Program-made: the position numbers and the translations under genes
Shown here: in pieces, positions 1,450-20,425 of the stretch
Layout: each line of letters opens with the position of its first letter
Numbering within the stretch: the stretch's first letter is position 1
DNA from: Roseobacter sp. MED193
GTDB lineage: Bacteria; Pseudomonadota; Alphaproteobacteria; Rhodobacterales; Rhodobacteraceae
DNA: 64,000 nt
Assembly (NCBI RefSeq): GCF_000152965.1
Contig: NZ_CH902583.1
Coordinates: 3,043,694 to 3,107,693, forward strand
Direction: 5' to 3'
Notes under the pieces: model-generated
Told to the model about the DNA's origin: nothing
The model's input: only the letters and a program-made list of their open reading frames with translations
The model's database searches: none

Positions 1450-1582
1450 CTTGGCTTCCTACTGGTCTGTGAACTTTCAAAGTGCTTACATTAGCGTCAC
1501 TTCGCTCACAATTGCGCAGTATGAAATATCAGCCACTTGGGTGAAGGTTTGGCAAAACAGCCAGCCAGAAAGAGACGGCCAG

Positions 1583-3568
1583 ATGCCAAATGCCTTTAAC
1601 TTGATCGACACCACCTGGATTGACCTGCCTGATGGGCGTCGCCTGGCCGCACGCATGTGGTTGCCTCGGCTGGAACAGCCAGTGCCGGCGATTCTGGAAT
1701 ATCTGCCCTACCGCCAGGGCGATGGCACCGCGCCACGGGATGAGACCACGCATACCGTTTTTGCCAGCGAGGGCTATGCCTGTATCCGCGTCGATATTGC
1801 CGGGACCGGGGACAGCGAAGGCGTTTTTGATGACGAATATTCTGAACAAGAGTTGAGCGACGGCGAGGCGGTTCTGGCCTGGATTGCCGCGCAGGACTGG
1901 TGCGACGGGAATATCGGCATGATCGGCATATCCTGGGGCGGCTTCAACGGCTTGCAACTGGCCTATCGTCGTCCAGAGGCGCTTAAGGCAGTGGTCTCGG
2001 TGGCCTCAACAGCCGATCGCTATGCCGATGACATCCATTTCATGGGCGGCTGTCTGCTCAGCGATAATGCCAATTGGGGCAGTCAGATGTTTGCCTATCA
2101 ATCGCGCCCGGCGAATCCAAAAAACCGACCCGATTGGCGGACAGATTGGATTAAGCGGATCGAAGAAATGCCCTTTATGGCCGCCGATTGGCTGCGCCAT
2201 CCCACCCGGGATGAGCAATGGAAACACGGTTCTGTCTGCGAGGATTGGTCGGCTATTACCGCCCCGGTTTTGGCAATCACCGGCTGGGCAGATGCCTATG
2301 TGAACACGCCATCCGCCCTGGCGGCTAATCTTGCCGCTCCAGCAAAAGCGCTTGTTGGCCCCTGGGAGCATCGCTACGCCCATATCGCTAAACTGGACCC
2401 TGCGGATTTTCATGGAGAGGTCCTGTCCTGGTTCGACCAATACCTGCGTGGAGAGGACAGCGGCGCAAAGGCATTGCCTGATTATCGCACCTTTATGCAG
2501 GAGCATTTCAATCCGACCATGCAGAACAAGCCTCGCCAGGGGCGCTGGGTGGCAGAGGCGCAATGGCCTTCGCCCAATGTACGTGAAAAGGTGATGTTTC
2601 TTGGGGGCGATGGGCTGACAGAAGAGGCCAAGGCTGGGCAGCGGGTTGTCCGCAATCCGGCCACTCTGGGCCAGGCAGGCGGATATTTCTGCGCGGGCAT
2701 GCGGTTTGAAAACGAGCTGCCGGGGGATCAAGCGGCAGATGATGCCATGGCAACCTGTTTTGACACTGGCCCATTGGCGGCGCCGCTTGAAATTCTGGGG
2801 CGGCCCCGCCTGCGGGTTTCCTTCAGTGTTGATCGGCCTGTAGCGCAGCTCGTGGCGCGGCTTTGTGATGTCTCGCCCGAAGGGGTGTCCCAGCGCATCA
2901 CTTTTAGGCCCCTGAACCTGACCCACCGCAATAGCCATGAAAGCCCAGAGCTATTGGTGCCGGGGCAGGTCTATGAAGCCGAGATCGCACTGAATGAATG
3001 CGCCCATCATCTGCGAGTGGGGCATCAACTGCGGCTGGCGTTGTCGACCTCCTACTGGCCCATTGTTTGGCCTGCCCCAGAGGCTGCCGAGGTGACGCTG
3101 CATCTGGAGAACTGTTCCCTTATTCTGCCAGAGCGGCGCGTGGCAAAGGAGATTGCCCCGCAGAACCCCGGTGCCCCACGTGAGTACCCAAGCCTGCAAT
3201 CTGAGGTGCTGCGCGAGGCCAGCGGCACCTCAGAAACCAAGACCCGCATTGACGGAACCTTGGTTCTGGATACCTTTGATGACTATGGTAAAGCAGTGGA
3301 TCCTTATCACGGACTCACCGTAGGCAGCCATGTTTCTATGCACTATGCGATTCACCCCGATGACCCGGCCTCTGCGGTGTTTGCCAGCGATTGGAATTTT
3401 ACATTTGAACAGGACAACTGGCAGGTCTCAATCGACACTGAGAACAAGATGACCTGTGATGTTGACAACTTTTACCTTTGGCGCCGGGTGACGGCCCGTG
3501 AGGGCGCCGATGGCGCAGAGGTTCTGGTCAAGGAATGGCAGGAAACCATTGCACGCGGATTCCAGTGA
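1583..3568 (+). CDS. CocE/NonD family serine hydrolase
   Basis: 661 residues from ATG 1583. The frame is open further upstream, but homology-like sequence begins at MPNAFNLIDTTWIDLPDG, so I chose this start. The N-terminal alpha/beta hydrolase domain carries the nucleophile motif GISWGGF (Ser about 117). A later GWADAYVN and WEHRYAH supply the probable Asp and His of the triad. The C-terminal third is the jelly-roll domain of X-Pro dipeptidyl-peptidase/CocE proteins. Such enzymes hydrolyse esters, amides or X-Pro peptides; the natural substrate is unknown. No signal peptide, so probably cytoplasmic. A strong hairpin follows the stop. Confidence 0.85.
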   Translation: MPNAFNLIDTTWIDLPDGRRLAARMWLPRLEQPVPAILEYLPYRQGDGTAPRDETTHTVFASEGYACIRVDIAGTGDSEGVFDDEYSEQELSDGEAVLAWIAAQDWCDGNIGMIGISWGGFNGLQLAYRRPEALKAVVSVASTADRYADDIHFMGGCLLSDNANWGSQMFAYQSRPANPKNRPDWRTDWIKRIEEMPFMAADWLRHPTRDEQWKHGSVCEDWSAITAPVLAITGWADAYVNTPSALAANLAAPAKALVGPWEHRYAHIAKLDPADFHGEVLSWFDQYLRGEDSGAKALPDYRTFMQEHFNPTMQNKPRQGRWVAEAQWPSPNVREKVMFLGGDGLTEEAKAGQRVVRNPATLGQAGGYFCAGMRFENELPGDQAADDAMATCFDTGPLAAPLEILGRPRLRVSFSVDRPVAQLVARLCDVSPEGVSQRITFRPLNLTHRNSHESPELLVPGQVYEAEIALNECAHHLRVGHQLRLALSTSYWPIVWPAPEAAEVTLHLENCSLILPERRVAKEIAPQNPGAPREYPSLQSEVLREASGTSETKTRIDGTLVLDTFDDYGKAVDPYHGLTVGSHVSMHYAIHPDDPASAVFASDWNFTFEQDNWQVSIDTENKMTCDVDNFYLWRRVTAREGADGAEVLVKEWQETIARGFQ

Positions 3569-12846: not shown

Positions 12847-13947
12847 ATGTATGTAGCTGTAAAGGGTGGTGAACGCGCCATCGACAATGCACATGCCTGG
12901 CTCGCCGAAGAACGGCGCGGTGATACTGGCGTGGCTGAGCTCAGCTTGGCGCAGATCCGCGAACAGATGAGTCTTGCTGTCAATCGCGTCATGGCCGAGG
13001 GCTCGCTGTATGATCCGGATCTAGCGGCCCTAGCGATCAAACAGTCGCGAGGCGATCTGATCGAGGCGATCTTTCTCATTCGCGCTTATCGCACCACCTT
13101 GCCACGCTTTGGGTATAGCGAAGCGGTTGATACCGGTGTCATGGCCTGTGATCGCCGCATCTCCGCCACCTTCAAGGATGCCCCTGGTGGGCAGGTGCTG
13201 GGGCCGACCTTTGACTACACCCATCGGTTGTTGGACTTCAAACTGGCTGCAGACGGTGAGACGCCGGAAGCCCCGGCTGCGGAACCACGCATGGAGGTCA
13301 CACCCCATATCACGGAATTCCTGCAGGGGGAGGACATCATCGAGCGCGAGCCCAGCTCAGAAGCGGTGCCGGGTGATTTGACCCGCGAGCCGATGAGCTG
13401 TCCGGCAGGGCGCGCAGTGCGGTTGCAGTCGCTGTCGCGCGGCGATGAGGGCTTTATCCTTGGCATGGCCTATTCCACTCAGCGTGGTTATGCGCGCAAC
13501 CATGCCTTTGTCGGCGAGCTGCGCATTGGCAAGGTGCCGGTGGAGATGGAAATCCCGGAGCTGGGCTTTGCCATCGAGATTGGCGAGGTGGAGCTCACTG
13601 AATGTGAGACGGTGAACCAGTTCAAGGGTTCAAAAACTGTGCCACCGCAGTTCACCCGTGGCTATGGGCTGGTCTTTGGCCAGTCCGAACGCAAGAGCAT
13701 CGCTATGGCATTGGTCGACCGCGCCCTGCGCTGGGAAGAACTGGGAGAGGATAACCTTGGCGCTGCCGCTCAGGACGAGGAATTCGTGCTCAGCCATTCC
13801 GACAATATTCAGGCGACGGGGTTCCTAGAGCATATCAAACTGCCCCATTACGTGGATTTCCAGTCAGAGCTGGAACTGGTGCGCAAACTGCGCCGCGAAG
13901 CACAGGAGTTGGCTGAGGAAATGGCCGCACGGGAGGCTGCGGAATGA
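12847..13947 (+). CDS. phnI: C-P lyase subunit PhnI (nucleosidase)
   Basis: 366 residues from ATG 12847. The frame opens upstream inside phnH, but MYVAVKGGERAIDNAHAWL is the family start. PhnI displaces adenine from ATP with a phosphonate, with PhnG/H/L. Internal conserved stretches such as RGDLIEAIFLIRAYRTTLPRFG and FKGSKTVPPQFTRGYGLVFGQSERK are clear. Its stop (13947) lies 2 bp from the stop of the antisense small gene on the minus strand. Confidence 0.94.
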   Translation: MYVAVKGGERAIDNAHAWLAEERRGDTGVAELSLAQIREQMSLAVNRVMAEGSLYDPDLAALAIKQSRGDLIEAIFLIRAYRTTLPRFGYSEAVDTGVMACDRRISATFKDAPGGQVLGPTFDYTHRLLDFKLAADGETPEAPAAEPRMEVTPHITEFLQGEDIIEREPSSEAVPGDLTREPMSCPAGRAVRLQSLSRGDEGFILGMAYSTQRGYARNHAFVGELRIGKVPVEMEIPELGFAIEIGEVELTECETVNQFKGSKTVPPQFTRGYGLVFGQSERKSIAMALVDRALRWEELGEDNLGAAAQDEEFVLSHSDNIQATGFLEHIKLPHYVDFQSELELVRKLRREAQELAEEMAAREAAE

Positions 13948-13949
13948 GT

Positions 13950-14129
13950 TTAGTCGCCTCTCCCGTCTCCATCGACGAAAGCATCATCAATGCCATGGGT
14001 AAAGGTGGACCTGCTGCGCAGTTTCTTGTGCCGCTTGGGGCGATAGAACAGCCCGGCCAGGATCACCGCAACGACCACGATCACGATGAAAATGCCCAAA
14101 ACGGTGCCCAGCAATTCGTCGGAATTCAT
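13950..14129 (-). CDS. Small single-span membrane protein, antisense within the phn operon
   Basis: 59 residues, ATG at 14129, stop TAA ending at 13950. AAAGGAG (complement of 14139-14145) sits 9 nt before the ATG, a near-perfect Shine-Dalgarno. Residues ~8-28 are an unbroken hydrophobic helix (LGTVLGIFIVIVVVAVILAG). YRPKRHKKLRSR follows, giving a strong positive-inside signal, then a soluble acidic tail. The predicted topology is outside N-terminus, cytoplasmic C-terminus. It lies between phnI and phnJ but on the opposite strand. The plus-strand frame here (13944-14183) encodes a D/N/H-rich, implausible peptide and I read it as the shadow. I do not recognise the family. Confidence 0.65.
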   Translation of the reverse strand: MNSDELLGTVLGIFIVIVVVAVILAGLFYRPKRHKKLRSRSTFTHGIDDAFVDGDGRGD

Positions 14130-14175
14130 CTCTCAAATCTCCTTTGCAAAACCGCAGCGAGGGAAAGGACAAAAC

Positions 14176-15042
14176 ATGTCTGACTATAACTTTGCCTATT
14201 TGGACGAACAAACCAAGCGGATGATCCGCCGGGCGATCCTGAAAGGCCTGGCGGTGCCGGGCTATCAGGTTCCCTTTGCCAGCCGCGAGATGCCGATGCC
14301 CTATGGCTGGGGCACCGGCGGTGTGCAGGTCTCGGCAGCGACGTTGACACCGGAGGATACGCTCAAGGTGATTGACCAAGGCGCGGATGACACCACCAAT
14401 GCGGTCTCCATCCGAAAGTTCTTTGAACGCACCGCAGGGGTTGCGACCACCGAGGAAACCACCAAGGCCAGCGTCATCCAGACCCGCCACCGGATCCCCG
14501 AAGCCGAGCTCACCGAGGATCAGATCCTGGTGTACCAGGTGCCAATCCCGGAACCGCTGCGGTTTCTGGAACCGCGCGAGACGGAAACCCGCAAGATGCA
14601 CAGCCTTGAAGAATATGGCCTGATGCATGTGAAATTGTACGAAGACATCAGCCAGCACGGCGATATCGCCACCTCCTATGCCTATCCGGTCAAGGTAGAG
14701 GACCGCTATGTGATGGATCCCTCGCCAATCCCCAAATTTGATAACCCAAAACTGGAAATGGCCGCGATCCAGCTGTTTGGCGCTGGGCGTGAACAGCGCA
14801 TCTATGCGGTGCCGCCCTACACACGCGTCGTCAGCCTGGATTTTGAAGACTACCCGTTTGAGGCCACCAAGGCCGATCATCCCTGCGATCTGTGCGGGTC
14901 TGAGCACAGCTATCTGGATGAGGTGATCCTGGATGATGCGGGCAACCGGATGTTTGTCTGCTCTGACACCGATTATTGCCGCACGCGGCGCGCCGAGGGT
15001 CATGTGGGTCGTTTGGGTGAAAGCGAAGGGGAGGCCGCGTGA
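14176..15042 (+). CDS. phnJ: Carbon-phosphorus lyase, radical SAM subunit PhnJ
   Basis: 288 residues from ATG 14176 (GGGAAAGGAC upstream). PhnJ uses a [4Fe-4S] cluster and SAM to cut the C-P bond of ribose 1-alkylphosphonate 5-phosphate, releasing an alkane such as methane. Cysteines at 237, 240, 262 and 268 (HPCDLC ... VCSDTDYC) have the same spacing as the E. coli cluster and active-site cysteines. GWGTGGVQ near residue 44 is also conserved. It is 228 bp from phnI because of the antisense small gene; all other internal junctions of the operon are tight. Confidence 0.96.
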   Translation: MSDYNFAYLDEQTKRMIRRAILKGLAVPGYQVPFASREMPMPYGWGTGGVQVSAATLTPEDTLKVIDQGADDTTNAVSIRKFFERTAGVATTEETTKASVIQTRHRIPEAELTEDQILVYQVPIPEPLRFLEPRETETRKMHSLEEYGLMHVKLYEDISQHGDIATSYAYPVKVEDRYVMDPSPIPKFDNPKLEMAAIQLFGAGREQRIYAVPPYTRVVSLDFEDYPFEATKADHPCDLCGSEHSYLDEVILDDAGNRMFVCSDTDYCRTRRAEGHVGRLGESEGEAA

Positions 15043-19948: not shown

Positions 19949-20425
19949 CTAGGCCCGATAAAACAGGTAGCGCCCCTCAGGGATGCCTTCGGGGCCTTTT
20001 AGCTCTTCAAACCCCACCAGGGGCTGGCCTGAAACCACGATGCCGCCCTTGGCCATGACGCTGGCAATCACCGGCGACATAGCGGCGGCTTCTGCCACAT
20101 CCTGTTCTTTGACACCAAAGCCAAAATCATAATGGGCCAGAACGATCTTATGGCCTTCGGCCTTGAGGCGCTCCAGCATCGGAACTGCTTCGCCTTGCAG
20201 GAAATCCTCTTCGGGCGGCACACAGGAGGGGTGGCATTGAAGGACCCGGTCGATGACCCAGACCCGGCGATCAGGCAGGATTTCACGCAGATGATCATAA
20301 GTGCGGCCATTGCCCAGGCCCATATCCAGTACATCCCCCGACACTCCGGCGACTTCCGCGCCAGCCCAGTTCAGCCCATCGCGTTGGGCGGTAAAACGGC
20401 GTAGCATTGAATCCAATCGGCTCAT
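19949..20425 (-). CDS. Small class I SAM-dependent methyltransferase (Methyltransf_17-like), last gene of glycan operon
   Basis: 158 residues. The SAM-binding glycine motif is DMGLGNGRTYDHLRE around residues 34-48, followed by an acidic VIDR at the end of strand 2. It resembles the short Methyltransf_17 family known from Roseobacters. A clear paralogue lies in this window at 36915-37409. Its start overlaps the deacetylase stop by 4 bp, so it is translated with the glycan genes. The substrate could be a sugar or lipid; nothing in the sequence decides. Confidence 0.78.
   Translation of the reverse strand: MSRLDSMLRRFTAQRDGLNWAGAEVAGVSGDVLDMGLGNGRTYDHLREILPDRRVWVIDRVLQCHPSCVPPEEDFLQGEAVPMLERLKAEGHKIVLAHYDFGFGVKEQDVAEAAAMSPVIASVMAKGGIVVSGQPLVGFEELKGPEGIPEGRYLFYRA

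Follow-up and report, generated by a model that had tools for sequence, protein, structure and literature searches.

How an operon can hold a gene that points the wrong way is the question raised by a 64,000-nucleotide (nt) stretch of the Roseobacter sp. MED193 genome (contig NZ_CH902583.1, positions 3,043,694 to 3,107,693; hereafter the window), in which a carbon-phosphorus (C-P) lyase operon carries a small gene on its minus strand between phnI and phnJ. The genes of the operon in the window are referred to here as phnG to phnN. The phnI-phnJ gap measures 228 nt (phnI ends at 13947 and phnJ starts at 14176), whereas the phnG-H, phnH-I, phnJ-K, phnK-L, and phnL-N junctions overlap or are at most 12 nt wide, and the original prediction for this locus, which had stressed that contrast, is accurate for phnG to phnN. 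We consider it likely that the locus combines a nested antisense membrane microgene with a translational bridge, a plus-strand frame that would keep phnI and phnJ coupled across the inserted gene.

On the minus strand, positions 13950-14129 translate into MNSDELLGTVLGIFIVIVVVAVILAGLFYRPKRHKKLRSRSTFTHGIDDAFVDGDGRGD followed by a stop, a frame of 59 codons with AAAGGAG nine bases before its ATG, just as had been described. The hydrophobic stretch and basic flank noted earlier are also present, since the product, assigned here to a family termed F1, consists of an N-terminal stretch with a 19-residue mean hydropathy of 3.32 that is predicted to form one membrane span, the basic flank RPKRHKKLRSRS, and the C-terminal sequence STFTHGIDDxxVDGDG. 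By the positive-inside rule, the microprotein is predicted to be a single-pass membrane protein with its C-terminus inside. Intact F1 orthologues, 56-88% identical over the protein, were found in 9 of the 12 genomes of the genus (loci are numbered with L and genomes with G below), and they sit between phnI and phnJ, although only the first codons of phnJ are visible in L006, where the contig begins inside that gene. Of the 9 orthologues, 8 retain the Shine-Dalgarno (SD) sequence and the ATG of the minus strand, and the leader AAAGGAGATTTGAGA[G/T] precedes the ATG in 7. The L008 orthologue has the leader ACAGGAGATTTGAGAG, with ACAGGAG replacing AAAGGAG, and the L007 orthologue has a GTG start directly behind the stop of a second antisense microgene. 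In L007, this second gene belongs to another family, F2, and the tandem antisense F2 and F1 genes lie between phnI and phnJ (1489-1923, minus strand); across the pair, the plus strand has an open frame of 190 codons.

Comparison with close relatives, which the original prediction had proposed as its check, favored the minus-strand frame. No stop or frameshift was found among the nine orthologues, and over all 36 orthologue pairs the codon differences at minus-strand positions 1, 2, and 3 numbered 440, 305, and 823. Codons with a single change gave 538 synonymous and 198 nonsynonymous differences in the minus frame and 118 synonymous and 618 nonsynonymous differences in the plus frame. Pairwise ratios of nonsynonymous to synonymous substitution (dN/dS, Nei-Gojobori method, NG86) ranged from 0.07 to 0.52 in the minus frame and from 0.5 to 2.7 in the plus frame, the latter range not being independent of the former because plus-strand third positions face constrained minus-strand first positions, which lowers plus-strand dS. 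By these measures of codon substitution, the 59-codon frame is a conserved protein gene under selection at the protein level. If the plus-strand frame were instead the real gene, encoding a small coupled sense protein, the hydrophobic antisense frame would be its mirror image, because in this register each NTN codon is opposite an NAN codon. The two frames are both open and share that register, in which 29 of the 33 antisense transmembrane-like (TM-like) open reading frames (ORFs) found in the survey described below also lie; there, such an ORF was defined by a 19-residue mean hydropathy of at least 2.0 and a length of at least 35 amino acids. This reading is nevertheless extremely improbable in our judgment, given that most changes are silent when read in the minus frame but alter the amino acid when read in the plus frame, that the SD sequence and ATG are kept on the minus strand, that F1, F2, and a third family, F3, have homologues outside the junction, and that no such antisense ORF occurs in 1386 length-matched windows of phnI coding sequence.

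The junction was surveyed in loci drawn from 110 of the 201 family genomes with a phnJ match (the best-scoring; 30 + 80 loci), from a first search of the genus, and from 80 named loci (the best of 590). In genome sampling, G340 was skipped because of stops and G242 because of a nearby contig end. From 201 loci, the removal of 6 that lacked a usable phnI-phnJ pair left 195, and that of 12 near-identical duplicates left 183 distinct ones; L202-L210 were used only in the analysis of synonymous recoding and of genus genomes without F1. The 183 distinct junctions comprised 69 closed junctions, 41 with a sense HAD-type phosphatase gene, and 73 with other inserts. Among the closed junctions, 59 showed an exact -4 ATGA overlap, 4 had phnJ in frame from the phnI overlap, and 6 were of other kinds. 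The phosphatase insert is about 198 codons long (e.g., in L016, L021, and L043), has ATGA-type overlaps at both ends in most loci, and, for one member, matched Pfam PF00702 with an expectation value (E) of 6e-17. The 33 antisense TM-like ORFs were distributed over 31 of the 114 opened junctions, where a single sense TM-like ORF was found, in a multi-span protein. In non-HAD gaps of up to 700 nt, antisense TM-like ORFs were present in 28 of 70 and sense ones in 0 of 70, against none in the phnI control windows; at a looser hydropathy threshold of 1.6, the same 70 gaps yielded 39 antisense and 9 sense. The frequency was 0.9% in 1170 windows from HAD junctions, which include L103, a locus with a microgene of its own. 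Other junctions of the operon behaved differently. In the 80 named loci, genes lay within 30 nt of each other at 73 of 74 phnG-H, 74 of 75 phnH-I, and 70 of 79 phnJ-K junctions, and the five gaps of at least 60 nt at these junctions were all phnJ-K and held no TM-like ORF. The phnK-L junction was opened in 29 of 79 named loci, with a sense TM-like ORF in 11 and an antisense one in 1. This comparison across loci marks the phnI-phnJ junction as an insertion hot spot. In L008 (1111-1718), a fragment of an additional phnJ 5′ end (67 nt aligned) lies between antisense genes of family F4 and family F1, which suggests that a cassette of microgene plus phnJ start was brought in by recombination.

The original prediction did not contain the 79-codon plus-strand frame at 13944-14183, which spans the entire 228-nt gap in register with the microgene. 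The codon substitution comparison gave no sign of peptide-level constraint in this frame, and its ends are arranged as in reinitiation coupling, with an ATGA overlap between phnI and the bridge and a bridge stop 8 nt inside phnJ. At the phnI-phnJ junctions, to which the bridge test was applied, the corresponding frame was open to within -21 to +8 nt of the phnJ start in 71 of the 73 opened non-HAD junctions, compared with 9.4 ± 2.7 expected from dinucleotide shuffles with a random frame and a scored range of -25 to +15. The exceptions were L063 and L076, where a sense gene comes first; in two of the 73 (L133 and L137), the triplet at the phnI overlap is not a start codon. When the 53 gaps of 60-400 nt were grouped into 44 DNA clusters (blastn E 1e-4) and one gap was taken per cluster, all 44 were bridged, compared with 6.7 ± 2.3 expected, or 14.8 ± 2.6 with gap length kept. 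These comprised 18 clusters with an antisense TM-like ORF and 26 without. The bridge frame was stop-free inside the gap in 41 of 44 clusters, compared with 7 and 15 for the two remaining plus frames. Gap length modulo 3 tracked the type of phnJ start in most clusters (ATGxxTGA with 0 in 19, ATGA with 1 in 17). F1 is missing from three genomes of the genus, and their gaps (141, 42, and 90 nt) are likewise bridged, each to +8. A frame of 192 codons in L212 leads from phnI to a HAD gene, with 4-nt overlaps where it begins and where it ends, and passes an antisense F2 member on the way; the bridge of L027 is 413 codons long and shares its gap with a long sense ORF read in a different frame. We infer that the plus frame is a bridge preserving phnI-phnJ translational coupling.

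GC-rich codon use in the antisense gene could by itself leave the plus frame open, without selection for coupling. In this register, only TTA, CTA, and TCA codons in the microgene make plus-strand stops, all three are rare, and because synonymous recoding of the antisense genes leaves the plus frame open in 58% on average, codon use explains part of the openness. However, bridging also occurs in all 26 clusters that lack an antisense TM-like ORF, the two other plus frames are mostly closed, and gap length matches the phnJ start type. In addition, none of the 29 in-register antisense genes has a TTA, CTA, or TCA codon within the gap; the five instances found all fall in the phnJ overlap. We therefore regard the by-product explanation as unlikely.

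The microgenes at the junction fall into several families, namely F1, F2, F3, F4 (L008, L018), F5 (L096, L134), and singletons. F2 is recognizable by a basic stretch, GxWIW--DG--RS--HP-xPGG-W, and a Gly/Asp tail, and F3 by LP-D-AGP[DG]GW--DT; the largest blastp cluster is probably held together in part only by Gly/Asp tails. Among 295 genomes, F2 was matched 10 times in 9 genomes, 4 times at phnI-phnJ, and F3 was matched 45 times in 44 genomes, at least 5 times at phnI-phnJ, a count that leaves aside three genomes with phnJ (G166, G210, and G327). The microgenes thus represent families of small membrane proteins that are also at home elsewhere and that turn up repeatedly between phnI and phnJ. 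An F1 profile searched against 394 family genomes found two strong further relatives in two other genera, both away from phn and both keeping the C-terminal motif SRS[TG]FTHGIDD; weak matches in three further genomes (E 0.002-0.006) were not used. One of the two hosts, G228, is absent from the 201 genomes with a phnJ match, and relatives of F1, F2, and F3 away from phn include some in genomes where no phnJ was found. In line with the original prediction, which named no family for the microprotein, F1 had no match at cut-off in Pfam or NCBIfam (the best in Pfam, Colicin_V at E 0.019, was below cut-off), none in PADLOC at E up to 0.1, only weak matches in PHROG (best E 0.0018), and no related solved structure at E up to 0.1, and examples of F2-F4 had no match above curated cut-off in Pfam or NCBIfam, or at E up to 0.1 in PADLOC.

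Several further loci were noted among these families. The F1 homologue of L253 (920-1668), away from phn, is preceded by a gene reading MSRLDSMLRRFTAQRDGLNWA..., a close homologue of which lies in the window at 19949-20425 (minus strand), not far from the phn cluster; this may hint at where the F1 gene came from. Loci L221-L250 hold F3 microproteins (e.g., LPDxxAGPGGWLIDT), some of them near a truA-like ORF and an ORF holding HEFWIDP. In L027, a divergent antisense TM-like ORF (minus strand, 1008-1184 nt past the phnI stop) has a similar leader, GGGAGATTTGAGAGATG, 46 nt from phnJ and also has GGGAGATTTGAGAG upstream; its tail is unlike that of F1 and it sits behind a long sense ORF with several hydrophobic stretches.

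The distribution of the families bears on where the microgenes came from and what they do. Birth of all of them de novo from the mirror of the bridge is weakened by the F1, F2, and F3 homologues elsewhere and may yet apply to the singletons. The suggestion in the original prediction that the microprotein attaches C-P lyase to the membrane, here widened to anchoring or regulation of C-P lyase or phosphonate transport at the membrane, could draw on the fixed position of F1 beside phnJ in the genus. It has lost ground, as other families occupy the same spot and relatives occur away from phn or in genomes lacking a phnJ match. On these grounds, a phn-specific role is judged unlikely, and anchoring or regulation of this kind very unlikely. 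The partner of the microprotein is most likely a general membrane partner rather than C-P lyase itself.

The microgene and phnJ are arranged head to head with start codons 46 nt apart, and the nesting of an antisense microgene within the phn operon matches the layout of a noncontiguous operon. We infer from gene order and the bridge frame that phn mRNA runs through the antisense gene. Mutual exclusion of the phn and microgene mRNAs would be a likely consequence of this layout, and the transcriptional collision that had been suggested to temper phn expression may occur. The microgene might even act mainly as a cis-acting antisense RNA against phn, through collision and RNase III, with the protein secondary; for the same layout in S. 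aureus, the review PMC7154746 presents both effects as shown. Against this stand the selection on the protein sequence and the persistence of homologues that overlap no phn gene, and we consider a mainly RNA-based function rather doubtful. A search of 13700-14500 against Rfam returned no RNA element at E up to 1.

The preferred explanation, a microgene nested within a bridged operon, can be set out as a sequence of steps. In the ancestor, phnI and phnJ probably met in an ATGA overlap, by which translation of PhnJ was coupled to that of PhnI; we take the two proteins to be subunits of one complex. According to Huber et al. (PMC10666635), short overlaps are enriched among subunits of heteromeric complexes, and gaps of about 20 nt almost abolish termination-reinitiation coupling. 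Because such gaps nearly abolish coupling, a frame without stops from the phnI stop to the phnJ start would allow DNA to be inserted without its loss. In the Rhodobacteraceae, short genes have inserted themselves at this junction time and again, many of them membrane microgenes in antisense orientation or a HAD phosphatase gene in sense orientation, and inserts would persist if no stop interrupted the plus frame between the stop/start overlap of phnI and the start of phnJ. Ribosomes would translate a throw-away bridge peptide and then reinitiate at phnJ. The bridge may maintain coupling, or it may prevent Rho-dependent polarity by leaving no untranslated RNA exposed to Rho. With moderate confidence, we go on to propose that selection keeps peptide-unconserved "translational bridges" stop-free across antisense microgenes, handing ribosomes from phnI to phnJ, at a junction that serves as a recurrent landing site for unrelated antisense membrane microgenes. 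One strand of this DNA would then encode a membrane microprotein while the other acts as a conveyor for ribosomes.

Several points weigh against this explanation, in addition to the dependence of the plus-frame dN/dS noted above. The junctions were drawn from the best PhnJ matches, and the lineages are related. An SD-like sequence precedes phnJ, so that its coupling to phnI may be less than strict, and at certain loci what is scored as a bridge may be a short sense gene in its own right. A consensus promoter scan for the microgene found none and did not report the TTGTTC-17-TATAGT match that was picked out by eye, in which TGTAGT replaces TATAGT in several F1 orthologues. Variation at four-fold sites in the first 40 phnJ codons showed no clear drop (0.36, compared with 0.39 in the rest). 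Finally, one study cited in the review PMC12548453 saw no effect of spacing from -4 to +25 nt, although, according to the same source, a very high value at -4 in that study conflicts with others.

Features at the phnI-phnJ junction, in window positions
Feature	Positions	Strand	Remarks
Antisense microprotein gene, family F1	13950-14129	-	59 codons; orthologues, alignment, dN/dS, homologues away from phn
SD (AAAGGAG) and spacer of the microgene	14130-14146	-	AAAGGAG at 14139-14145, nine bases before ATG
Bridge ORF	13944-14183	+	Starts in ATGA at phnI stop; 79 codons; stops 8 nt inside phnJ (ATGTCTGA)
phnI	12847-13947	+	tblastn anchor in junction survey
phnJ	14176-15042	+	SD-like GGAAAGGA at 14162-14169; head to head with microgene
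Weak promoter-like match for the microgene	14183-14211	-	By eye, TTGTTC-17-TATAGT, 8/12, inside first phnJ codons

If the explanation is true, an operon that encodes an enzyme complex of fixed ratio can accommodate a gene in the opposite orientation because the path of the ribosome is kept open. It would also provide a simple sequence test, an open frame with a stop/start overlap that leads to the next start, for coupled operons and for nested antisense genes that may be dropped in annotation, besides adding several membrane microprotein families without a family model. Among the titles and opening lines of abstracts covered by a literature search, no work on antisense genes in phn operons or on frames bridging operon gaps turned up.

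Four known systems resemble parts of this arrangement. In the noncontiguous operon menE-menC-MW1733-ytkD-MW1731 of S. aureus, as described in the review PMC7154746, a protein gene on the opposite strand likewise lies between co-directional operon genes. The phn region differs in being open on the operon strand as a bridge and in the recurrence of the layout with different microgenes at one junction. Termination-reinitiation coupling at -4 nt (PMC10666635; PMC6728339) shares the ATGA at the bridge start and the ATGA or ATGxxTGA at the bridge end, whereas the coupled phn frame would be a carrier across another gene rather than a conserved protein. The mycobacterial MIRU elements are presented, in the review PMC12548453, as short, apparently mobile inserts with an ORF coupled at -4 nt, so that insertion should spare expression of the genes at the site. 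In contrast, the phn inserts have no common repeat, the 53 gaps forming 44 clusters, 18 of them with an antisense TM-like ORF. The antisense overlaps of E. coli O157:H7 reportedly involve established genes. Like the microgene studied here, the overlapping genes of PMC9927249 are protein genes antisense to another open frame, and they differ from it in that the sense frame at the phn junction shows no peptide-level constraint.
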